A DNA stretch of 64,000 nucleotides from Kordiimonas laminariae (lineage in GTDB: Bacteria > Pseudomonadota > Alphaproteobacteria > Sphingomonadales > Kordiimonadaceae). Numbering within the stretch: position 1 is the first letter of the stretch; each line of letters opens with the position of its first letter. Below are positions 15,683-27,880 of the stretch, piece by piece. The position numbers and the translations under genes are program-made. The stretch lies in the NCBI RefSeq assembly GCF_023008165.1, contig NZ_JAKQZA010000005.1:186001-250000 (forward strand), given 5' to 3'. Under the pieces are notes generated by a model that was given only the letters and a program-made list of their open reading frames with translations, made no database searches and was not told where the DNA came from.

Positions 15683-16381
15683 ATGAATTACCCCCTTTAT
15701 CTCATCCCCGGCACTATGTGTGATGGAAGGCTATGGCATAAGCTTACACCTTATCTGAGCACATATGAAATTCATCATGCAGTCTATGCAGGCCAAACCA
15801 GTATGGATGATATGTTGGCTGCTGTGGTAGAAAACAAACCTGAGAAAAGCCATCTTATAAGCTTCTCTCTTGGTGGCTATCTAGCTATGGAAGCAGCCCT
15901 TAAAAATCCTGATAATTTCGAGCGCATCATCATTATTGCGAGCTCACCTTACGGCTTATCTGATGATGAAAAACAGCTACGCAGAGTAAACGCAAAAATG
16001 CTTTCACGGATGACCTACAGAGGTATGTCCAGAAAACGCCTGAGCCAGTTTGTTTCTCCAAATAATATGACTGATAATTCAGTTACAAATACTATTCTAC
16101 AGATGGAAAAAGACCTTGGTCAGGATGAATTGATCAACCAGTTGATCGCCCCAATTGACCGCAGGAACCTGAAAGAAGATTTGATAACTATTGGAAAACC
16201 AATTCATTTCATTATGGCGGAAGAAGATGAACTAGTACCAATTGGTGCTATTGAAAAGCTTGCAGAAGCTTATGAACACATCCATCTCCACCGAATGGAA
16301 GGCTCAGGGCATATGATTCCGCTGGAAATACCAGAAAAACTAGCTGAAATTATAAATTATGTAATAAAATCAGATAGATAG
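15683..16381 (+). CDS. Alpha/beta hydrolase
   Basis: A 232-residue cytoplasmic hydrolase of the alpha/beta fold with a minimal cap. The N-terminal LYLIPGTMCDGRLWHKL carries the usual oxyanion-hole turn. The nucleophile elbow is SFSLGGY (Ser62), the acid probably the Asp in MAEEDELVP, and the base the His in GSGHMIPLE near the C-terminus. It lacks the features that would name a substrate. It begins four bases after ogt, which suggests cotranscription, and its last 25 bases overlap the convergent isochorismatase-like gene. Confidence 0.85.
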   Translation: MNYPLYLIPGTMCDGRLWHKLTPYLSTYEIHHAVYAGQTSMDDMLAAVVENKPEKSHLISFSLGGYLAMEAALKNPDNFERIIIIASSPYGLSDDEKQLRRVNAKMLSRMTYRGMSRKRLSQFVSPNNMTDNSVTNTILQMEKDLGQDELINQLIAPIDRRNLKEDLITIGKPIHFIMAEEDELVPIGAIEKLAEAYEHIHLHRMEGSGHMIPLEIPEKLAEIINYVIKSDR

Positions 16382-16881
16382 TTTATTTTTACATTCATTT
16401 CTTCAAATTTAGTGAGTATTTTTTCCTGAACACTGTCAGCGGACATACCGTTCATTGCAGTTGCCACCACCGCATCAGCCAAAACAGATATTTCATACCC
16501 ATTCTCTATAGCGGCCTCTACAGTTGCACGAACACAGTGCTGAGTATGAACTCCCATTATCACAAGCTTTGATATCTGCTCAGCCTTTAAAACCGCATCC
16601 AGTTCAGTTCCATAGAAAGCATTGCCTGTCGTTTTCTGAATTATGGTTTCCCCACCGGTAGGTTTCACTTCATCCTTGAAATTATGCAGCGGTTGCCCTG
16701 CCCGGTACGGGGAAGATGGATCAGATGAACAGTCCTGAATATGAAAAACAGGCCAATTTTCCGATCGCACCCAATCCAGCATTCTTTTCATTACCTCTTC
16801 AGCGTCAGGGTTATTTCTTTCACCCCACTTAGGGTGATCCATAGCTTTCTGAACATCAATAATGAGAAGAGCTGTTTTCAT
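16357..16881 (-). CDS. Isochorismatase-family cysteine hydrolase (copy A)
   Basis: A 174-residue cysteine hydrolase of the isochorismatase superfamily, which includes nicotinamidases and other amidohydrolases. The catalytic triad is present: Asp9 in LLIIDVQ, Lys83 in IIQKTTGNAF, and Cys116 in GVHTQHCVRAT. It starts inside the stop of the upstream paralogue (ATGA overlap at 16878-16881), so the two are cotranslated. The two proteins and even their first 20 or so codons are very similar, indicating a tandem duplication. The substrate is unknown. Confidence 0.85.
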   Translation of the reverse strand: MKTALLIIDVQKAMDHPKWGERNNPDAEEVMKRMLDWVRSENWPVFHIQDCSSDPSSPYRAGQPLHNFKDEVKPTGGETIIQKTTGNAFYGTELDAVLKAEQISKLVIMGVHTQHCVRATVEAAIENGYEISVLADAVVATAMNGMSADSVQEKILTKFEEMNVKINYLSDFIT

Positions 16882-17435
16882 CTATTTGATATCACCTCTG
16901 CCGAGGTACAGATAGAAGCATAATCTGCTCCAATATGAACAAGTGTAATATGGTGAACATCATCAGCAGACCATGAAGTCCCTCTGCAATCAGTTACCCC
17001 TGTTGCAGCAGTCGCATCTGAAATAACTGAAACGTGATACCCTAAAGACGCAGCCATTCTTGCAGTACAATCCACAGAATGTTGCGTTAACACACCTACA
17101 ACAGCCAAATGTTCAATAGAAAGAGACTTCAGGTATGTATCAAGCTCCGTTCCCACAAAGGCATTGTTGGTGGACTTTTCAATAATCTTTTCTCCAATTT
17201 CTGGGAAAACTTCTTCTTTAAAATCGTGAAGAGGCTGTCCTTCCCTATATGGTGAAGTAAGCTCTTTTGAAGAGTGTTTAATATGAACAACAGGCCATTT
17301 TTTATGCCGCCAATGAGATAAAAGTTCAGCTATTTTCCTTTCAGCATCAAGGTTATTGCGAATACCCCATTTAGGGTGATCAATTGCTTTTTGAACATCA
17401 ATAATGAGAAGAGCTGTTTTCACTGTAACTTCCAT
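16878..17435 (-). CDS. Isochorismatase-family protein lacking the catalytic cysteine (copy B)
   Basis: Paralogue of the downstream gene, 185 residues from ATG 17433-17435. An in-frame GTG at 17421-17423 with GGAAG seven bases upstream aligns exactly with the paralogue's first codon and may be the real start. Asp13 and Lys87 of the triad are kept, but the nucleophile position reads GVLTQHSVDCT, with Ser120 in place of Cys; a cysteine lies three residues later. The active site is therefore altered or inactive. Some family members, such as PhzD-type isochorismatases, work without the cysteine, so loss of function is not certain. Confidence 0.8.
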   Translation of the reverse strand: MEVTVKTALLIIDVQKAIDHPKWGIRNNLDAERKIAELLSHWRHKKWPVVHIKHSSKELTSPYREGQPLHDFKEEVFPEIGEKIIEKSTNNAFVGTELDTYLKSLSIEHLAVVGVLTQHSVDCTARMAASLGYHVSVISDATAATGVTDCRGTSWSADDVHHITLVHIGADYASICTSAEVISNR

Positions 17436-17439
17436 AACA

Positions 17440-17473
17440 AAAAAGGCCCACCACAGTATGGCAGGCCTTTCTG
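17440..17473 (-). terminator. Intrinsic terminator between rho and the isochorismatase pair
   Basis: On the minus strand AAAGGCC (17470-17464) pairs with GGCCTTT (17448-17442), extended by GCCA/TGGT inner pairs and followed by a run of T. It is 20 bases beyond the rho stop. Confidence 0.75.
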
Positions 17474-17493
17474 AAATTTCTAGCTACAAAAAT

Positions 17494-18804
17494 TTAGTTA
17501 TTCATCTGCGAGAAGAAATCTTCGTTGTTCTTTGAGTCTTTCAACTTCCCAAGTAGGAATTCCATTGCATCCACGGTACCCATCGGAGTGAGAATACGGC
17601 GTAGTACCCACATTTTTGAAAGTGTTGCAGGATCAACAAGCAACTCTTCTTTCCGTGTACCGGATTTAAGAATATCAATCGCAGGGAACACGCGCTTATC
17701 AGCAACCTTACGATCAAGGATGATTTCAGAGTTACCTGTACCTTTGAATTCCTCAAAGATAACCTCATCCATGCGGCTACCAGTTTCAATAAGGGCTGTT
17801 GCGATAATGGAAAGAGAACCACCCTCTTCGATATTACGCGCCGCACCAAAGAAACGTTTTGGTCGTTGGAGCGCATTTGCATCCACACCACCTGTTAGTA
17901 CCTTACCAGAAGATGGTACCACTGTGTTGTAAGCACGGGCCAGACGGGTGATACTATCAAGCAAAATCACAACATCCTTGCCGTGTTCCACAAGACGTTT
18001 GGCTTTCTCAATCACCATTTCAGAAACCTGAACATGGCGAGAAGCAGGTTCATCAAATGTGGAAGATACCACTTCACCAGCCACCGAGCGCTGCATGTCT
18101 GTTACTTCCTCAGGACGTTCGTCAATAAGAAGTACAATCACATAACATTCAGGGTGGTTTGTTGTAATGCTCTTCGCAATATTTTGCAGAAGAACTGTTT
18201 TACCTGTGCGTGGTGGTGCCACAATAAGAGCACGCTGGCCTTTACCAATTGGAGCCACAAGATCAATCACACGCGGTGATTTATCTTTCACAGTTGGATC
18301 ATCCGGGTCCAGCTTCAATTTTTCATCTGGGTAAAGTGGTGTCAGGTTATCAAAGTGAACCTTGTGGCGTGTCTTCTCTGGCTCTTCAAAATTAATCTGT
18401 GAAACTTTAAGAAGTGCAAAGTAACGCTCACCATCTTTTGGTGCACGGATCTGGCCTTCAACGGTATCCCCTGTCCGGAGGCCAAACCGGCGAATCTGGC
18501 TTGGGCTGACATAAATATCATCCGGCCCTGGTAGATAATTAGCCTCAGGGCTTCTAAGGAAACCAAAACCGTCTGAGAGTGTCTCAATAACACCGCCACC
18601 CATGATTTCTACATCATCTTCTGCAAGCTGCTTTAGGATAGCAAACATCATATCCTGTTTGCGCATGCTGCTGGCATTTTCAATACCTACTTCTTCTGCA
18701 AGCGCTAGAAGATCGGCTGGGGTCTTATTCTTGAGATCCTGTAAGTGCATGGGATCGTCCATATTATTATTTCTATTGTCCGGATTATTATTGGCTTGCG
18801 CCAC
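17494..18804 (-). CDS. rho: Transcription termination factor Rho
   Basis: Hexameric RNA-dependent helicase that ends untranslated transcripts. The 436-residue protein has the N-terminal Rho helix bundle ([20 protein letters not shown]). The cold-shock-like RNA-binding domain contains [20 protein letters not shown]. The RecA-like motor has Walker [18 protein letters not shown], then [14 protein letters not shown] and [14 protein letters not shown] (Q/R-loop region). The hemE-hemJ-rho order next to the origin is an alphaproteobacterial arrangement. Confidence 0.98.
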
Positions 18805-18861
18805 TTTAATTGGAAGCTAATGCCAACTTACTCAACACGGTTGTCGGCTTTGGTGGGATTC

Positions 18862-18894
18862 AAAAAACGCCTCCAGTAGATCACTGAAGGCGCA
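18862..18894 (-). terminator. Intrinsic terminator downstream of hemJ
   Basis: On the minus strand GCGCCTTCAGT pairs with ACTGGAGGCG with one internal mismatch, then a T-run (18867-18862). It lies about 45 bases past the hemJ stop and insulates hemJ from rho. Confidence 0.75.
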
Positions 18895-18936
18895 ATAAAA
18901 TTACCATGCACTCACTGAGTGTCAAGCTATTTAGAT

Positions 18937-19383
18937 TTAGAATGGTTTTGCCACAGCGAGGATAACAACCACAATAATGAAGATTGCAGGTACTTCATTT
19001 ATCTTGCGGTAGAAGCTTTCACTTTTATCTCGTTCGCCAGCTGCAATTTTCTTACGCCATTTGGAAAGAACACCATGAAAACCTGAAAGGATAAAGACAA
19101 GAAGCAGTTTTGCATGAAGCCAACCACCTGCATCAAAACCAATATTGAAGGCAAGTGTTAGTCCTAGAATCCAGGCAATGGTCATAGCAGGATTGATGAT
19201 AATCCGCATCAAACTTGCTTCACGCTCAATCCACTTACCATCTTCTTCGCTGCCAACTTCACACTGCATATGATAAGCAAAATACCGAGGCAGCATAAAC
19301 ATGCCCGCCATCCAGAAAATCACAAAAATGATATGGCCGGCTTTTACATAAAAATAAGCGTCACCTAGAAATCCCGGTTCCAT
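18937..19383 (-). CDS. hemJ: HemJ-type protoporphyrinogen IX oxidase
   Basis: Inner-membrane enzyme oxidising protoporphyrinogen IX in organisms without HemG or HemY. The 148-residue protein has four hydrophobic segments. The family pattern KAGHIIFVIFWMAGMFMLPR comes first, with the conserved His17, followed by REASLMRIIINPAMT and GGWLHAKLLLVFILSGFHG. The C-terminal INEVPAIFIIVVVILAVAKPF is typical. It follows hemE after 23 bases, so two haem-pathway steps are likely in one operon. HemW elsewhere in the window adds haem delivery. Confidence 0.93.
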   Translation of the reverse strand: MEPGFLGDAYFYVKAGHIIFVIFWMAGMFMLPRYFAYHMQCEVGSEEDGKWIEREASLMRIIINPAMTIAWILGLTLAFNIGFDAGGWLHAKLLLVFILSGFHGVLSKWRKKIAAGERDKSESFYRKINEVPAIFIIVVVILAVAKPF

Positions 19384-19406
19384 GGCTTTTCTCTCCCTCG
19401 GGTATT

Positions 19407-20438
19407 TTAGCGTCTGAAGTTCTTAATAGTTTCAGAAAGCAAGGCTACATTCTCTGGCGGTGTTTCAGGTACAAAACCATGACCAAGGTTAAAGATGTGC
19501 GCGCCGCCCTTCAGGCTTTCCATAATCCGGTTCGCTTCGCTCACCATCAAATCACCACCTGAAACCACTAGGTGCGGATCCATATTCCCTTGTACACAAA
19601 CCTTACTTTGAACCTCACTTGCAGCCCACTCAAGCGGTACACCTGTATCAAGGGATACAGCATCCACCCCTGTCTCCTCTACAAAACGTGCTAGAGCGGC
19701 GCCTGCAAGCCGTGGGAAGCCGATGATAGGTGTTTCGCTATGCTTCACCCTAACCTTCTCAACAATGGCTTTGGTGGGCTTTATAATCCATTCATCAAAC
19801 ATTGTTTCCGGGATCGCCGCTGCCCAGCTATCAAAAATTTGTACAGCATCAGCACCCGCTTCAATCTGACGGCACAGATATTCAGCTGTTGCATCCACCA
19901 GCATATCCAGGATGCGGCCAAATAGTTCAGGGTTACCGTATCCAAGCTGACGAGCAGCTGCATGGTCCTTACTACCTTGTCCCGCAATCATGTATGTTGC
20001 CACTGTCCAAGGTGCCCCGGCAAAACCAAGAAGCGTTACATTTTCAGGAAGCGCTGAAGAGAGATTTGAAACCGTCTTATAAACGTTCCCAACTTTATCG
20101 TGGAAGTTCGCCATCGATAGTTTTGAGAAAGCTTCTTCTGTTGCTACCGGATCAAGCTTTGGCCCAAACCCAGTCTCAAACCAAACCTGCTGACCTAATC
20201 CGTCTGGTACCACAAGTATATCTGCAAACAGAATTGCGCCGTCCATGCCGTAACGCCTGATAGGCTGCAAGGTTACTTCTGTCGCTTTATCGGGGCTATA
20301 GCAAAAATCCATGAAAGACGGACAGGTAGAACGTACCTCTCTGTATTCAGGCAAATATCTTCCTGCCTGACGCATGAACCAGAATGGAACTTTTTCACCG
20401 GGGTTACCCTTGAGAGTCTCTAGAAGAATTTTAGCCAT
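19407..20438 (-). CDS. hemE: Uroporphyrinogen decarboxylase
   Basis: Converts uroporphyrinogen III to coproporphyrinogen III. The 343-residue protein has KVPFWFMRQAGRYLPEYREV with the conserved Arg pair, DGAILFADILVVPDGLG with the catalytic Asp region, GFAGAPWTVATYMI and FNLGHGFVPETPPENV at the C-terminus. The gene points away from the predicted origin and marks its left border, exactly as hemE does in Caulobacter. Confidence 0.98.
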   Translation of the reverse strand: MAKILLETLKGNPGEKVPFWFMRQAGRYLPEYREVRSTCPSFMDFCYSPDKATEVTLQPIRRYGMDGAILFADILVVPDGLGQQVWFETGFGPKLDPVATEEAFSKLSMANFHDKVGNVYKTVSNLSSALPENVTLLGFAGAPWTVATYMIAGQGSKDHAAARQLGYGNPELFGRILDMLVDATAEYLCRQIEAGADAVQIFDSWAAAIPETMFDEWIIKPTKAIVEKVRVKHSETPIIGFPRLAGAALARFVEETGVDAVSLDTGVPLEWAASEVQSKVCVQGNMDPHLVVSGGDLMVSEANRIMESLKGGAHIFNLGHGFVPETPPENVALLSETIKNFRR

Positions 20439-20562
20439 AATGCTTTTACCTGACAGTTTTATACACGGGACGATCTATAGGGCGACCATACTAATACTTA
20501 AATATAAATATAATAGAATCTTGTAGTAGTAGTGAATCCCTGTGAATCATGGGGAAAACTAT

Positions 20563-20571
20563 TTATCCACA
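20563..20571 (+). promoter_or_regulatory. DnaA box (perfect)
   Basis: TTATCCACA, consensus 9-mer, left half of the predicted origin. The partly palindromic TTGTGCACAA (20575-20584) follows four bases later and may be a second, weaker DnaA site. Confidence 0.8.
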
Positions 20572-20831
20572 AGCTTGTGCACAAACAAGGGTTCTGCGGC
20601 ATTTTAACAGTGATTCTGTGAGTAAGACTCTGGACTGTGCAGAAAACCTCGCGATTCGAGACTTTGACTCTGTCTGTGGAAACTGGGGATAACCGAAAAA
20701 GACTCAGATTTGGCGACTCAGGTTATTAAACTTTGCACAGGCTTGGGATAAGATTCACTCCTGTGTGAACTCTCTCTATACAAATTGGGGGTAAGTGGCC
20801 TAATGTGCTTTTCAACATTTACACCAACAAG

Positions 20832-20840
20832 TTATCCACA
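20832..20840 (+). promoter_or_regulatory. DnaA box (perfect) next to ppsR start
   Basis: TTATCCACA two bases before a single-mismatch box TTATTCCCA at 20843-20851. The second box overlaps the first base of the ppsR ATG, so DnaA bound here would probably cover the ppsR ribosome-binding and promoter region. Confidence 0.8.
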
Positions 20841-20850
20841 GGTTATTCCC

Positions 20851-21750
20851 ATGAGTCCTCCACTGCCCGGTTTTCAGGAATCTGAGTCAAGCAATGAAGT
20901 TCAATTTCATCTGCATCTGGTCTCTGACTCTACAGGTGAAACTCTTGAGGCAATCGTATCAGCAGCTCTTGTTCAGTTCGAAGGAGTGAATGTTCACAAA
21001 CATTATTGGCCACTTGTGCGTTCGGCAATGCAAATGTCTCGTTTGATGGAAGATATATGTGAGCAGCCAGGCCTTGTTATGTATACGTTGGTAAATACAG
21101 AAATCAGACAAGTCCTTGAACAGTCTTGTATGGAAAAAAACATTCCAGTGCTTTCGATCCTTGATCCGGTGATTAATCTACTCGGTTCATATTTCGGGCA
21201 ACAAGCTTCTCATAAACCAGGGCGTCAACATACGATGGATGCTCACTATTTTCAGCGAATTGATGCCCTTCATTTTACTATGGCACATGATGATGGCCAA
21301 TTAGTAGAAGATGTAAATGAAGCAGATATTATATTGGTAGGTGTATCCCGTTCATCGAAAACACCAACCAGTATCTATCTGGCTAATAAGGGTTATAAAA
21401 CATTGAATGTTCCGTTTGTGCCCAATTGCCCGATGCCGATGGAACTCGATAACCTCAAAGATAAATTCGTGCTTGGATTAACGACAAGTCCAGAACGCCT
21501 TGTTCAAATCCGGACTAATCGTTTGCGCTCTATCAATGAAGATGAAGAAGCGGATTATACAGACCGGGATCAAATTCAGGATGAAATCAAAGAGTGTCGC
21601 CGTTACTGCACAAAACGTGGCTGGCAAACCATTGATGTAACCCGGCGGTCTATTGAAGAAACAGCAGCTGCAATCCTGAACCGTTATTATCAGTGGTTAG
21701 AGAAAAACGGAAAAACACACGCACATGAATTACCGTCTGATCTTAGGTAA
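20851..21750 (+). CDS. ppsR: Pyruvate, phosphate/water dikinase regulatory kinase-phosphatase (PpsR/DUF299, RP001-type)
   Basis: Bifunctional serine/threonine kinase and phosphorylase that uses ADP to inactivate, and phosphate to reactivate, PEP synthase or PPDK. The domain begins FHLHLVSDSTGETLEAIVSA. The P-loop is GVSRSSKTPTSIYLA near residue 175, followed by NVPFVPNCPMP. I set the start at ATG 20851 (299 residues); an in-frame TTG at 20785 would put 22 unrelated residues and a DnaA box into the gene. It marks the right border of oriC and heads the ppsR-maf-aroE-coaE-dnaQ run. Confidence 0.93.
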   Translation: MSPPLPGFQESESSNEVQFHLHLVSDSTGETLEAIVSAALVQFEGVNVHKHYWPLVRSAMQMSRLMEDICEQPGLVMYTLVNTEIRQVLEQSCMEKNIPVLSILDPVINLLGSYFGQQASHKPGRQHTMDAHYFQRIDALHFTMAHDDGQLVEDVNEADIILVGVSRSSKTPTSIYLANKGYKTLNVPFVPNCPMPMELDNLKDKFVLGLTTSPERLVQIRTNRLRSINEDEEADYTDRDQIQDEIKECRRYCTKRGWQTIDVTRRSIEETAAAILNRYYQWLEKNGKTHAHELPSDLR

Positions 21751-21752
21751 GT

Positions 21753-22352
21753 ATGATGACTGAATTTATTTTAGCTTCAGGCAGTAAAACGCGGGCGAAA
21801 ATGCTGAAAGATGCTGGCGTGAATTATACCGTTCAAACGGCATCTGTTGATGAAGATACTCTCAAAGAAGCGCTGGTTGCTGATGGTGCAGCCCCTCGCC
21901 ATATCGCTGATGCTCTAGCAGAAATGAAAGCACGGGCAGTTTCTTTCATGCATCCACAAGCGCTGGTTTTAGGGGCTGATCAGATTTTGGTCAAAGACGA
22001 TAAAATATTCTCGAAAGCTTCAAACCAGCAAGAAGCAGAAGCCACATTAAAAGAACTATCAGGCGGTGAACACAGGCTTATCTCAGCAGCGGTTATTTGC
22101 CAGAATGGGCAAGCGATTTGGCGCTCAGTTGATCAGGTGAAAATGGATGTAAGGCCATTATCTGATACCTTCATTAAACAATATTTAGATACACTGGGTG
22201 ATGATGCTTATTGGTCTGTCGGTTGTTATCAGCTCGAAGGTATAGGCGCACAGCTCTTTAACCGGGTGGATGGTGATTATTTCACCGTGCTTGGTATGCC
22301 TCTCCTACCTGTTCTTGATTTTCTGCGCCGCTATAATTTGTTGCCGCTCTAA
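21753..22352 (+). CDS. maf: Maf-family nucleotide pyrophosphatase
   Basis: Hydrolyses non-canonical or modified nucleoside triphosphates (dTTP/UTP-type or m7GTP-type in the family). The N-terminus EFILASGSKTRAKMLKDAGV is a version of the usual LASxSPRR motif, with SKTR in place of SPRR. VLGADQILVKDDKIFSK holds the catalytic acidic residue, and ISAAVICQNG follows. The C-terminal YQLEGIGAQLFNRVDGDYFTV is typical. It begins two bases after ppsR. The 199-residue length is normal. Which nucleotide it prefers cannot be decided by eye. Confidence 0.92.
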   Translation: MMTEFILASGSKTRAKMLKDAGVNYTVQTASVDEDTLKEALVADGAAPRHIADALAEMKARAVSFMHPQALVLGADQILVKDDKIFSKASNQQEAEATLKELSGGEHRLISAAVICQNGQAIWRSVDQVKMDVRPLSDTFIKQYLDTLGDDAYWSVGCYQLEGIGAQLFNRVDGDYFTVLGMPLLPVLDFLRRYNLLPL

Positions 22353-22364
22353 AGAGTATTTCCC

Positions 22365-23192
22365 ATGAAAAAAGCCGCTGTTATCGGATATCCAATTGCT
22401 CAGTCTCTTTCGCCCGTTATTCATAACCACTGGTTTGAACAAAACGGAATTGAAGGTAATTATGAAGCGATTGAAGTGGTTCCTGAAGAATTGGGTATGG
22501 CTGTAGAACGCCTTAAAACAGAAGGATATTCGGGTTTTAATGTAACGGTGCCCCATAAAACAGATATCATCAAATATCTGGATAAAGTAGCTCCACTTGC
22601 CCGTCAGATGGGTGCTGTGAATACGGTGAAAATAGCGGAAGATGGTACATTAAGCGGGTTTAATACGGACGGTATTGGTCTTGTAAAACATTTGAAAGAT
22701 ATTGTGCCTGAATATCCAAAAGACAAACCTGCTCTGATTATTGGTGCTGGTGGTGCAGCTCGCGCAGCGGCACTTGGGCTCGTGAATGAAAACCTGCCTA
22801 TGGTGATGATCACTAACCGGACACGAGGAAAAGCCGAAGCAATCGCGGGTGATGTTGGTCGTGGCCGTATGACGGTGGTGGACTGGAAAACCCGCGCACA
22901 AGCGGTGGCCGCAGCGGGTCTTATTGTGAATACCACGGTGCTCGGGATGGCAGGTCAGCCTGCTCTTGAGTTAAGCCTTGATCATGCAGCCAGTGATACC
23001 GTGGTGTATGATATTGTTTATAAGCCGCTTGAAACTGAATTACTGAAAGATGCAGGGGAACGTGGCTTGAAAACTGTTGATGGGCTAGGAATGCTTGTGC
23101 ACCAAGGAGCAGCAGCCTTTAAAATCTGGTTCGGCGTAGAGGTAGGATTTGATGCTGACCTCCGCAAAACTTTGGAGGCAAAAATCACATGA
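22365..23192 (+). CDS. aroE: Shikimate dehydrogenase (NADP+)
   Basis: Fourth step of the shikimate pathway. The 275-residue protein has the substrate site [17 protein letters not shown] and [17 protein letters not shown] with the catalytic Lys. The NADP-binding [13 protein letters not shown] is followed by [11 protein letters not shown] and the C-terminal [18 protein letters not shown]. Stop and coaE start overlap as ATGA (23189-23192). An exported chorismate mutase, acting later in the aromatic pathway, is also encoded in this window but in another cell compartment. Confidence 0.97.
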
Positions 23193-23779
23193 TTATTGTG
23201 GGTTTAACCGGCTCCATCGGTATGGGAAAATCAGAAACTGCCAAAATGTTTGTAGCTGAAGGGGTGCCCGTATTTGATGCTGATGCGGCAGTTCATAGGC
23301 TTCAGAAGAAAGGCGGTAAGGCTTTACCCTTAATCGAAAAAGCTTTCCCTGGTTCTGTTGCGGGTGGTGAGCTTGACCGTGCCAGCCTTGGAGCGCAGGT
23401 GTTTGCTGATCCGGCGAAGAAAAAAGTCCTTGAGAATATCATGCACCCTATGGTGGGCGATGAACGCATTGCTTTTTTTGAAGCGGCAGAAAAAGCAAAC
23501 GCTGATATTGTGGTTCTTGATGTACCCCTTCTTTTTGAAACGGGTGGTGACAAAGGTTGTCACTATAGTGTGGTAGTGTCTGCTCCTGCTGAAGTTCAGC
23601 GTGAACGGGTACTTGCGCGTTCCGGTATGACTGCAGAAAAATTTGAAGATATTCTTAAACGCCAGATGCCAGATGCTGACAAACGCGCGAAGGCAGACTA
23701 TATCGTTGATACAGATAAAGGGCTTGAGCATGCAAAAGCCCGTGTGAGAGAAATACTCACTACTATAAGGAACAGATAA
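23189..23779 (+). CDS. coaE: Dephospho-CoA kinase
   Basis: Last step of coenzyme A synthesis. P-loop [18 protein letters not shown] is at the N-terminus. [28 protein letters not shown] and [12 protein letters not shown] are the CoA-binding and lid motifs. The C-terminal [20 protein letters not shown] is standard. At 196 residues it is full length. Translationally coupled to aroE by a 4-base overlap, with dnaQ four bases beyond. Confidence 0.97.
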
Positions 23780-23783
23780 AACT

Positions 23784-24449
23784 ATGCGTGAGCTTATTTT
23801 CGATACAGAGACCACAGGCTTTGATCCACTTTCAGGTGACAGGCTTATTGAGATTGGTCTTGTTGAGATGGTTGATAAAAAGCTCACCGGTAATAATCTG
23901 CACCAATATGTAAATCCTGAACGCGAAGTGCCAGAAAGTGCCGTGAAAATTCACGGTCTGACAACTGAGTTTCTCAGTGATAAACCCGTATTCACTGAAG
24001 TGATGGATGAATTTCTTGAGTATGTCGGTGATGATAGTGTGCTCGTGGCGCACAATGCCGAGTTTGATATGAAATTTATCAACTGGGAACTTGAGAACGC
24101 TAGCCGCCCTATCATTCACAAAAAGCGTTTCATTGATACACTAGCCATTGCCCGGACCAAATTTCCGGGTTCACCAAACAGCCTTGATGCGCTTTGTAAG
24201 CGTTTTGCCATCAACAATACCCACCGTACCCTTCACGGTGCGCTTCTTGATGCTGAAATTCTGGCAGAAGTTTATATTGAGCTGGAAGGTGGCCGCCAAA
24301 GCGGGATGGACTTATCTGTTGCTAAATCATCCCGCGCTGTAATCCAGAAAAAAAAGCGTGAAAAGCGTACTTTCCCTGTGAGCGAAGAGGATTTGACAGC
24401 GCATGCTGAGTTTATTAAATCTTTAAAAGATCCAATCTGGAATAGTTAG
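23784..24449 (+). CDS. dnaQ: DNA polymerase III epsilon subunit (3'-5' proofreading exonuclease)
   Basis: DEDDh exonuclease of the replicative polymerase. ExoI motif is REIILFDTETTGFD-like (ELIFDTETTGFDPLSGDRLI). ExoII is LVAHNAEFDMKFIN, and ExoIII HRTLHGALLDAEILAEVYIEL carries the catalytic His and Asp. The 221-residue C-terminus is short and probably includes the clamp/alpha-binding tail. HolA, the delta subunit, is also encoded in the window. Confidence 0.96.
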   Translation: MRELIFDTETTGFDPLSGDRLIEIGLVEMVDKKLTGNNLHQYVNPEREVPESAVKIHGLTTEFLSDKPVFTEVMDEFLEYVGDDSVLVAHNAEFDMKFINWELENASRPIIHKKRFIDTLAIARTKFPGSPNSLDALCKRFAINNTHRTLHGALLDAEILAEVYIELEGGRQSGMDLSVAKSSRAVIQKKKREKRTFPVSEEDLTAHAEFIKSLKDPIWNS

Positions 24450-26154: not shown

Positions 26155-26940
26155 CTAATGGATAATATTGAAGAAGCGACCGTATGGGATGAAACCTAGG
26201 CAACCCACATCTTTACCCTGATCACAGTCATAAAGGCTGAAAGTGGTTATATCAGCTTCGCCAACAATGAATTTCTGGTGGATTGGCCCCATATTTGAAA
26301 TGTTGCGGCTGTCCGAGCTGCCATCCCGGTTATCACCCATCATGAAATAATGGTCTTGAGGCACAACAAAAACTGGGGTGTTATCATAAGGACCCCTGTC
26401 AGTTGCTTCATAAATACGGTGCTTTACGCCGTCAGGCAGAATTTCTTCATACTCTTTTACCCTTTTGTCGCTACCCTGATAGTTGGTATAGTTCACGTCA
26501 CGGATAAAGGTACGTTGTACCATCTTTCCATTAATATAGAGACGGCCTTCCCGCATTTGGATACGATCACCTGGCAGGCCAATGACACGTTTGATGAAAT
26601 CATCCCCACCACGGTGAGGAAGTGTGAAAACAACAACATCACCACGTTCTGGATTTCCTGAAAACACCTTATCTTCTGAGATAAAATCAGGGTCAAAATA
26701 ATAGCTGTAGCGGTTATAACCGTAAGTAAATTTTGAGACGAAAATCCGGTCACCTACCTCAAGAGTTGGTTCCATACTACCGGACGGGATATGGAAAGCA
26801 CCCCATGCGAAGGTGGTGAAAATAAGGTAAAAAGCAACGATTGAAACAATATCTTTAAGAAGAGCTACTAGCTCATTCTTTTTGGGTTTATCTTCTACTG
26901 CTTCTTTTTCTTCTTTTATTTCAACCGGTTTATCGGTCAT
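26155..26940 (-). CDS. lepB: Signal peptidase I (copy 1)
   Basis: Inner-membrane serine protease removing signal peptides. From the ATG at 26938-26940 (upstream GAGGACGG) it has 261 residues. A cytoplasmic Lys/Glu-rich tail precedes one transmembrane helix (about 28-48). The catalytic serine is in IPSGSMEPTLEVGDRIFVSK (Ser55), and the catalytic lysine in DDFIKRVIGLPGDRI (Lys117). The GDNRDGSSDSR box E is present. It lies just downstream of a second, very similar lepB, separated by about 166 bases. Confidence 0.95.
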   Translation of the reverse strand: MTDKPVEIKEEKEAVEDKPKKNELVALLKDIVSIVAFYLIFTTFAWGAFHIPSGSMEPTLEVGDRIFVSKFTYGYNRYSYYFDPDFISEDKVFSGNPERGDVVVFTLPHRGGDDFIKRVIGLPGDRIQMREGRLYINGKMVQRTFIRDVNYTNYQGSDKRVKEYEEILPDGVKHRIYEATDRGPYDNTPVFVVPQDHYFMMGDNRDGSSDSRNISNMGPIHQKFIVGEADITTFSLYDCDQGKDVGCLGFIPYGRFFNIIH

Positions 26941-27106
26941 CTGCCGTCCTCTATTTTCATTCCGCACTTTATTATTCAGTGCATCTTTGTTGGCGAGTGT
27001 ACTGTGGGCGGCAGTATTTGCAATCGCGCATTCATTAAAAACAGAAAACTCCCTGTGAGTGTACTGCAGCTAATGATGATGAACTGTAAGAGTTGGGCTC
27101 AGACTA

Positions 27107-27880
27107 TCAGCGGATAATATTGAAAAAACGTCCATAAGGAATAAAGCCAAGACAACCCACATCTTTACCTTGATCACAATCATAAAGACTGAAAGTGGTG
27201 ATATCTGCCTCGCCTACGATAAATTTCGAATGCACAGGCCCCATGCCTGAAATATTGCGGCTGTCAGAGCTGCCATCCCGGTTATCACCCATCATAAAAT
27301 AATGGTCCTGAGGTACGACAAACACAGGTGTGTTGTCATAGTGGCCGCGGTCTGTTGCTTCGTAAATTCGGTGTTTCACGCCGCCTGGCAGAGTTTCTTC
27401 ATATTCTTTTACGCGGCGGTCATTCCCCTGATAATTGGTATAGTTCACATCGCGGATAAATGTGCGGTCTATCATCTCACCGTTGATATAAAGGCGGCCT
27501 TCCCGCATTTGGATGCGGTCACTGGGCATGCCAATTACCCGTTTGATGATATGATCATCACTACGGTGCGGTTGAACGAATACGACTATATCACCACGAT
27601 CAGGGCTGCTGGCAAACAGACGGTTCTCAGAAATGAAATCCGGGTCCATTGGGAAACTGTAGCGGTTATAACCGTAAGCAAACTTTGAAACAAAGATACG
27701 GTCACCAACTTCAAGAGTTGGTTCCATACTGCCTGACGGGATATGGAAAGCACCCCATGCAAAAGTGGTAAAAATGAAATAGAAAGCAACGATTGAAACG
27801 ATATCTTTAAAAAGAGATCCGGCTTCATTCTTCTTTTCAGGGGCATTTTTTTCTGCCGCTTGAGATACGGTTTCTGTCAT
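27107..27880 (-). CDS. lepB: Signal peptidase I (copy 2)
   Basis: Tandem paralogue of the next gene downstream: 257 residues, with the same order of elements and most of the sequence identical from the membrane helix on. Catalytic Ser51 is in IPSGSMEPTLEVGDRIFVSK, Lys113 in DHIIKRVIGMPSDRI. The GDNRDGSSDSRNIS box is intact. Differences are scattered (for example the NRYSFPMDP versus NRYSYYFDP stretch and the N-terminal tail), so the two are diverged, active-looking enzymes and not an assembly repeat. Whether they differ in substrate cannot be told. Confidence 0.94.
   Translation of the reverse strand: MTETVSQAAEKNAPEKKNEAGSLFKDIVSIVAFYFIFTTFAWGAFHIPSGSMEPTLEVGDRIFVSKFAYGYNRYSFPMDPDFISENRLFASSPDRGDIVVFVQPHRSDDHIIKRVIGMPSDRIQMREGRLYINGEMIDRTFIRDVNYTNYQGNDRRVKEYEETLPGGVKHRIYEATDRGHYDNTPVFVVPQDHYFMMGDNRDGSSDSRNISGMGPVHSKFIVGEADITTFSLYDCDQGKDVGCLGFIPYGRFFNIIR

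Follow-up and report, generated by a model that had tools for sequence, protein, structure and literature searches.

In the Dam/SeqA system of Escherichia coli, the adenine-methylation palindromes of a solitary methylase are clustered at oriC and upstream of dnaA. PMC5145175 gives 11 GATC sites for the origin and six for the promoter region of dnaA. In our own count, used as a yardstick, the 11 fall within 232 bp of oriC (the near flanks have 13.4 per kb) and 6 within 300 bp upstream of dnaA. The oriC sites are reported not to be phased by integral helical turns (PMC5145175). In Caulobacter crescentus, Cori has a DnaA box and GANTC, the target of CcrM, and the cell has both CcrM and GcrA. Caulobacter origins are described as having "several" GANTC (PMC3973325), and Cori has five CtrA sites (PMC2217572). 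A Caulobacter model already assumes full methylation of the origin as a precondition for initiation (PMC2217572); such a requirement is not a new idea. GANTC-rich replication loci linked to CcrM are also described for repABC, for example ori2 of A. tumefaciens (PMC11514494, PMC6090056).

The locus considered here lies in a 64,000-nucleotide stretch of the Kordiimonas laminariae genome (the window). As in E. coli, methylation palindromes are clustered both at the origin and upstream of dnaA, and the methylase is solitary. However, the palindrome is GANTC, the methylase is of the CcrM type, SeqA was not found and GATC is not enriched. With Cori the locus shares CcrM, GcrA, a DnaA box and GANTC in the origin, but its GANTC sites number 14 and it has no CtrA-box-like sequence. 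Unlike the RepC-dependent repABC loci, where the putative ori2 has three GANTC, it is a DnaA-type chromosome origin flanked by hemE and ppsR. A literature search, which stopped short of comparative work on Caulobacter origins and is no proof of absence, found no array as large as this reported for any alphaproteobacterial origin of the DnaA type. A search for work on CcrM in Kordiimonas likewise gave nothing.

The origin between hemE and ppsR and its GANTC sites

The origin is bordered on the left by hemE (19407-20438, minus strand; an ORF for uroporphyrinogen decarboxylase, PF01208, E 2.4e-112) and on the right by the divergent ppsR (20851-21750, plus strand; a kinase/pyrophosphorylase, PF03618, E 4e-96; the start codon at 20851 is our choice). 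The 412-bp spacer between them (20439-20850) is assigned as chromosomal oriC from GC skew, two exact DnaA boxes and a like layout in same-genus relatives. The skew changes from -0.10 in 16001-20000 to +0.09 in 20001-24000, and its cumulative minimum, computed over the 64-kb window only, falls in the 18001-22000 bin. The sequence-only reading had placed a GANTC array over oriC, and the spacer, the skew switch and the DnaA boxes agree with that placement. Elsewhere in the window, two adjacent similar ORFs (26155-27880) resemble signal peptidase I (lepB; named by eye).

From left to right, the predicted core of the origin consists of an A+T-rich stretch that is a candidate unwinding element (20490-20518; 75% A+T in 20479-20518), the putative trio-like repeats TAGTAGTAG (20524-20532, plus strand), a weak DnaA-box-like sequence TGTGAATCA (20541-20549, minus strand, two mismatches) that contains GANTC site 20544, and an exact DnaA box, TTATCCACA (20563-20571, plus strand). 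The repeats resemble DnaA-trios (the motif 3'-GAT-5', reading outward from the DnaA box), and similar trinucleotide runs occur at the same place in relatives. The order of the elements resembles the box-spacer-trio layout of PMC8287927, from which the definition of the trio is also taken. GANTC site 20534 lies between the TAG repeats and the weak box, and sites 20516, 20534 and 20544 surround the predicted core. A second exact copy of TTATCCACA is found at 20832-20840 (plus strand), and there are 15 DnaA-box-like sequences with up to two mismatches when both exact boxes are included. The exact boxes have counterparts in the genus: of its 17 other readable origins, 16 have one 118-158 bp from hemE and 15 have one 386-453 bp from it. 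The CtrA box has the motif TTAA-N7-TTAA; no such sequence, allowing one mismatch, is present in the 500 bp adjoining hemE. There is a single GATC site, at 20472, in 20300-21100.

A recount of the window gives 14 GANTC sites within 20516-20930, at 20516, 20534, 20544, 20612, 20626, 20653, 20666, 20701, 20715, 20752, 20853, 20878, 20884 and 20926, the last four being in the first codons of ppsR. The sequence-only reading had counted 13 in these 415 bases; all 13 positions were right, and 20878 had been overlooked. It had also seen no GANTC in 21001-21350, and our count there is indeed zero. The nearest site upstream of the array is at 20414, and 15 of the 54 sites in the whole window lie within 20414-20926. 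For the background, the window was combined with 26 stretches of 20 kb from elsewhere in the 3.65-Mb genome; this sample of 584 kb, about 16% of the total, has 560 GANTC. Without the 14 sites of the array, the background is 0.94 per kb overall and 1.82 per kb outside ORFs of at least 100 aa. The sequence-only reading had proposed a genome-wide count per kb; on this sample, the array is about 36-fold above the rest of the sampled genome. The expected number per 415 bp is 0.39 at the overall rate and 0.75 at the rate outside ORFs, lower than the roughly 1.6 that had been assumed for random sequence, and the Poisson probabilities of at least 14 sites are 1e-17 and 1e-13, respectively.

The enrichment is specific to this pentamer. 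In 2000 dinucleotide-preserving shuffles of 20441-20935, GANTC occurred 2.1 times on average and eight times at most. Among the 16 palindromes of the form xyNyx, only GANTC is strongly enriched; TANTA, with six copies, was reached in a fraction of 0.0155 of the shuffles, and for the remaining 14 palindromes the fraction was at least 0.17. The window outside oriC has 40 GANTC against 203 expected from dinucleotides, a depletion of about five-fold, and depletion of GANTC has been described for bearers of CcrM (PMC3973325). All four bases are found at the N position of the array's sites, and the flanks have in common only a preference for A/T at the neighboring base (22 of 28). A search for a longer shared motif yielded nothing beyond that preference. 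With all four N bases in use and flanks that share so little, selection has most likely acted on GANTC itself as a CcrM target; the pattern is more in keeping with the site of a methylase than with a longer binding site of some protein.

The arrangement of the sites was examined for order of other kinds. The 14 sites show no clear helical phasing (R of 0.13 at 10.5 bp; the best of five periods gave 0.45 at 10.0 bp, p about 0.06). They do not hug the DnaA boxes, the mean gap being 5.8 against 4.5 for random placement (11 sites, 20516-20853). The extended GcrA-type motif YGAKTCK fits four of the 14, with about 3.5 expected by chance (our own reckoning, for equal bases and both strands). GcrA has also a stricter form of the motif, YGAKTCG, which fits two of the 14. 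The extended form is named in PMC8725594, where GcrA motifs can vary between species.

Two further clusters of at least five GANTC per 415 bp were found in the genome sample, one in the dnaA promoter region, described below, and the other at the start of contig C20 (L074 203-512), where two of six GANTC are inside a 295-aa ORF.

The sites in the genus and in the class

The genus is represented by 19 genomes, in 18 of which the origin could be read (hemE was not found in G010, which is therefore absent from the comparison), and merging the near-identical sister G013 with the genome of the window, G000, leaves 17 units. A site was called shared when another species has a GANTC within three alignment columns. 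The count for the window depends on the stretch: 14 in the 600 bp next to hemE, 14 in the aligned 500 bp and 10 up to the first aligned residue of ppsR. In the lineage of G000 and G013, eight of the 14 sites are private, whereas the 16 other same-genus origins have one to four sites (mean 2.8), with no or one private site each. No other palindrome has more than three private copies in the window lineage. The private sites are 20534, 20612, 20626, 20666, 20701 and 20715, within 20534-20756, and 20878 and 20884 in ppsR. Sites 20516, 20544, 20853 and 20926 are common to 3, 5, 8 and 15 other species, respectively, and 20653 and 20752 each have a counterpart in a single other species.

For most of its length the spacer can be aligned colinearly with those of the relatives (17 loci), and the gain of sites therefore looks like the result of substitution rather than insertion. 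Judged from these alignments, the array is young and was gained on one branch. G013 has the same 14 sites, but its 861-bp stretch is 97% identical to that of G000, and the two differ by two substitutions in the 495-bp region, neither inside a site; being so similar, the sister says little on site maintenance. The sequence-only reading had held that failure of the clustering to be conserved in close relatives would count against it, and among the 17 other same-genus genomes only G013 has the array. The array is missing from 16 of the 17 other same-genus species, so its function, if any, is not required in the genus.

In the class, 289 genomes were searched, with a ppsR match in 202 and a ccrM match (E <=0.001) in 241. 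From the 202, 89 genomes were read, as 29 best-match loci and 60 hand-picked among the matches listed. Further loci came from the best 80 of 594 places and from the genus, family and order set (50), for a total of 219. The usable loci numbered 149; the other 70, many from Rhodobacterales, had no hemE-ppsR pair or were outside the length or position limits. The 149 spacers include near-duplicates (L003 and L004; likely also L093 with G005 and L119 with G056), and the stretch ends at about residue 18 of ppsR for most class members and at the start codon for the window. Nineteen extra loci were kept outside the 149; 18 of them have the hemE-ppsR pair, and G277, G304 and G293 repeat genomes already included.

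The 149 spacers have 379 GANTC in 67.6 kb, or 5.6 per kb, against 1.6 per kb in their mostly coding flanks. Bearers of CcrM generally have more GANTC in their intergenic DNA (PMC3973325, PMC8725594), which may account for part of the difference. The densest spacers are those of the window lineage (10 sites in the strict 413-bp spacer), followed by G205 (9 in 380 bp) and several with six or seven. Relative to a dinucleotide model, the class-wide excess of GANTC is modest, 1.3-1.6 fold. In the 47 spacers of the genus, family and order, the excess of AGNCT (1.49) is greater than that of GANTC (1.41). Seven hand-sorted spacers belong to genomes that lack a clear ccrM match (the matches of G151 and G313 being middling); in these there are 17 GANTC against 13.1 expected, and GANTC ranks fifth among the palindromes; the 75 other class spacers have 216 against 142.1. 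One locus with no ccrM among the matches listed (L176, G193) has five sites.

Conservation is stronger evidence than this excess. In 12 other groups, GANTC was kept in 122 of 196 comparisons (62%), against 21% expected from identity, which makes it the best conserved of the 16 palindromes, the next being TGNCA at 48%. Three small groups among the 12 (g65, g104 and g137, 11 comparisons) showed zero conservation of GANTC. The comparisons are directed pairs, so that larger groups weigh more, and the stretch includes the first ppsR codons. In the genus of the window, 19% of 608 GANTC comparisons were kept against 8% expected; for other palindromes the values are 10% and 9%. Similar arrays are found in another genus or genera of the class: G205, G285 and the MAG Baikal-deep-G52 (L195, L372 and L149) have 9, 7 and 6 GANTC in the hemE-ppsR spacer, several of them at matching positions. 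These arrays have fewer sites, but unlike that of the window lineage they are kept between diverged species; the spacers of G205 and G285 are 66% identical, and five sites are aligned (by eye).

CcrM, candidate readers and the promoter clusters

The sequence-only reading had proposed to look for ccrM, and a full-length gene is present, with a PF01555 N6_N4 methylase domain and a RAMA domain; an rnhB-like gene (named by eye) adjoins it. A second DNA-methylase-like gene, at L002 472-1815, is a partial match to PF01555. GcrA is also present in the genome. About 240 bp upstream of the gcrA match, three GANTC lie within about 31 bp (L293 1922-1952). A search for SeqA (PF03925) gave no match in the genome of the window, and among 14 control genomes it gave a match in E. 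coli only.

The dnaA promoter cluster (L079 16592-16782) is flanked by an rpsT-like ORF (named by eye) and by dnaA (by Pfam), after which comes a dnaN-like ORF (by eye). The parallel to E. coli, where sites are clustered at both oriC and the dnaA promoter, holds here for GANTC and not for GATC. Upstream of dnaA, GANTC is found at a recognizable conserved place in 21 of 27 loci, including all 16 of the genus; it was not found in the other six, all outside the genus. In the alignment of 16 species, the 75 bp that end at the conserved site have five GANTC in G000 and G013 and two to four in the 14 other same-genus loci. Five GANTC occur in 74 bp at L079 16713-16786 (G000:C21:416713-416786), and one of the five is kept in all 16 same-genus loci that were read.

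The region upstream of ccrM has four to nine GANTC in every one of 30 loci (L315-L344), the window genome's own copy being at L001 2372-2456, and the spacing 13/15/11 is identical in 21 of the 30. Caulobacter ccrM has two such upstream sites, according to a review (PMC10073500). The cluster possibly serves autoregulation of ccrM through its methylation state. As the dnaA and ccrM clusters are found across relatives, they are older than the array at oriC.

A proposed link between methylation state and origin readiness

The enrichment of GANTC at this origin is real, specific and recent, and the sequence makes a role plausible. We propose, with about an even chance of being right, that the methylation state set by CcrM is a switch on the readiness of this DnaA-type origin. 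The array would be fully methylated before initiation, and passage of the fork would turn all 14 sites hemimethylated in the two sister origins. CcrM, acting late in the cycle as it does in studied relatives (PMC3973325, PMC11514494), would then restore full methylation. If readiness to fire differs between the fully methylated and hemimethylated states, the array would amount to a sharply thresholded license, given once per cycle. The promoters of dnaA and ccrM, with GANTC clusters of their own, would change state in the same circuit. The state may be read by a hemimethylation-binding protein, by GcrA or by DnaA itself. We infer the methylation of the sites, the timing of CcrM, the effect of the state on firing and the identity of the reader.

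Published Caulobacter data speak against a link between CcrM and the origin as a general rule. C. crescentus cells that lack ccrM keep a normal DNA content profile, and the deletion leaves initiation undisturbed (PMC3973325), which counts against our explanation; mutation of a putative site in the Caulobacter dnaA promoter gave no significant change in promoter activity (PMC3885167). The sequence-only reading, in which GANTC hemimethylation and CcrM license the origin, is therefore borne out in part: the place at oriC, the presence of ccrM, the specificity for GANTC and the GANTC-dense dnaA promoter agree with it, whereas the lack of conservation in close relatives, the lack of a SeqA match, the lack of clear phasing and the normal ccrM-less Caulobacter do not.

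Three ways of reading the state are sharper versions of the methylation switch and share its probability. With DnaA as the reader, no separate protein is needed: m6A in or near the unwinding core and between DnaA boxes would directly alter DnaA binding or melting. Sites 20516, 20534 and 20544 are well placed for this, since they surround the TAG repeats in a span of 33 bp and one of them is inside a DnaA-box-like sequence, but site-to-box distances are not below random, and 20516 and 20544, being common to three and five array-free relatives, do not explain the array. We consider this version rather doubtful. Sequestration of the SeqA type, in which a dedicated protein would bind clusters of hemimethylated GANTC at both oriC and the promoter of dnaA and keep DnaA away from them until CcrM had acted, would fit the high density of GANTC at both places, as of GATC in E. 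coli, and an array size near E. coli's 11 sites. It is nevertheless unlikely: the search for readers, which covered SeqA and GcrA, did not find the SeqA family in the genome, the spacing is not clearly phased, and close relatives without the oriC array keep the promoter sites. Were such a binder to block re-initiation at oriC and the dnaA promoter, it would be a second, independent invention of the SeqA type, with alphaproteobacterial origin arrays rising and falling between genera, and we hold this to be similarly improbable. The array could instead concentrate GcrA, together with sigma-70 polymerase, at the origin, with an effect by way of transcription or as a sink for GcrA. GcrA is present in the genome, and in Caulobacter it prefers promoters with methylated GANTC (PMC8116508), which favors such docking, but the scarcity of sites that fit the extended and stricter motifs, hardly above the chance number for the former, makes it very unlikely.

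The sites might also have nothing to do with methylation as a signal, if they are targets of some other protein or products of drift or of local mutation bias, with methylation playing no part. Gain on one branch, with only a near-identical sister available, means that maintenance cannot be judged, and this leaves room for such a reading. Arguing the other way, GANTC was privately gained eight times in this lineage and no other palindrome more than three times, the genome avoids GANTC elsewhere, and all four N bases are used; we regard this reading as distinctly unlikely.

Action of CcrM on an alphaproteobacterial chromosome origin has been proposed, modeled and, for Caulobacter, answered in the negative. 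With GANTC conserved above chance in the spacers of other groups, it would seem unsafe to extend the Caulobacter answer to the whole class. The genus offers a natural comparison with and without the array on a shared origin layout, one species pair with it against 16 species without. The many GANTC at this origin are a hint that methylation may help to set the timing of chromosome copying.
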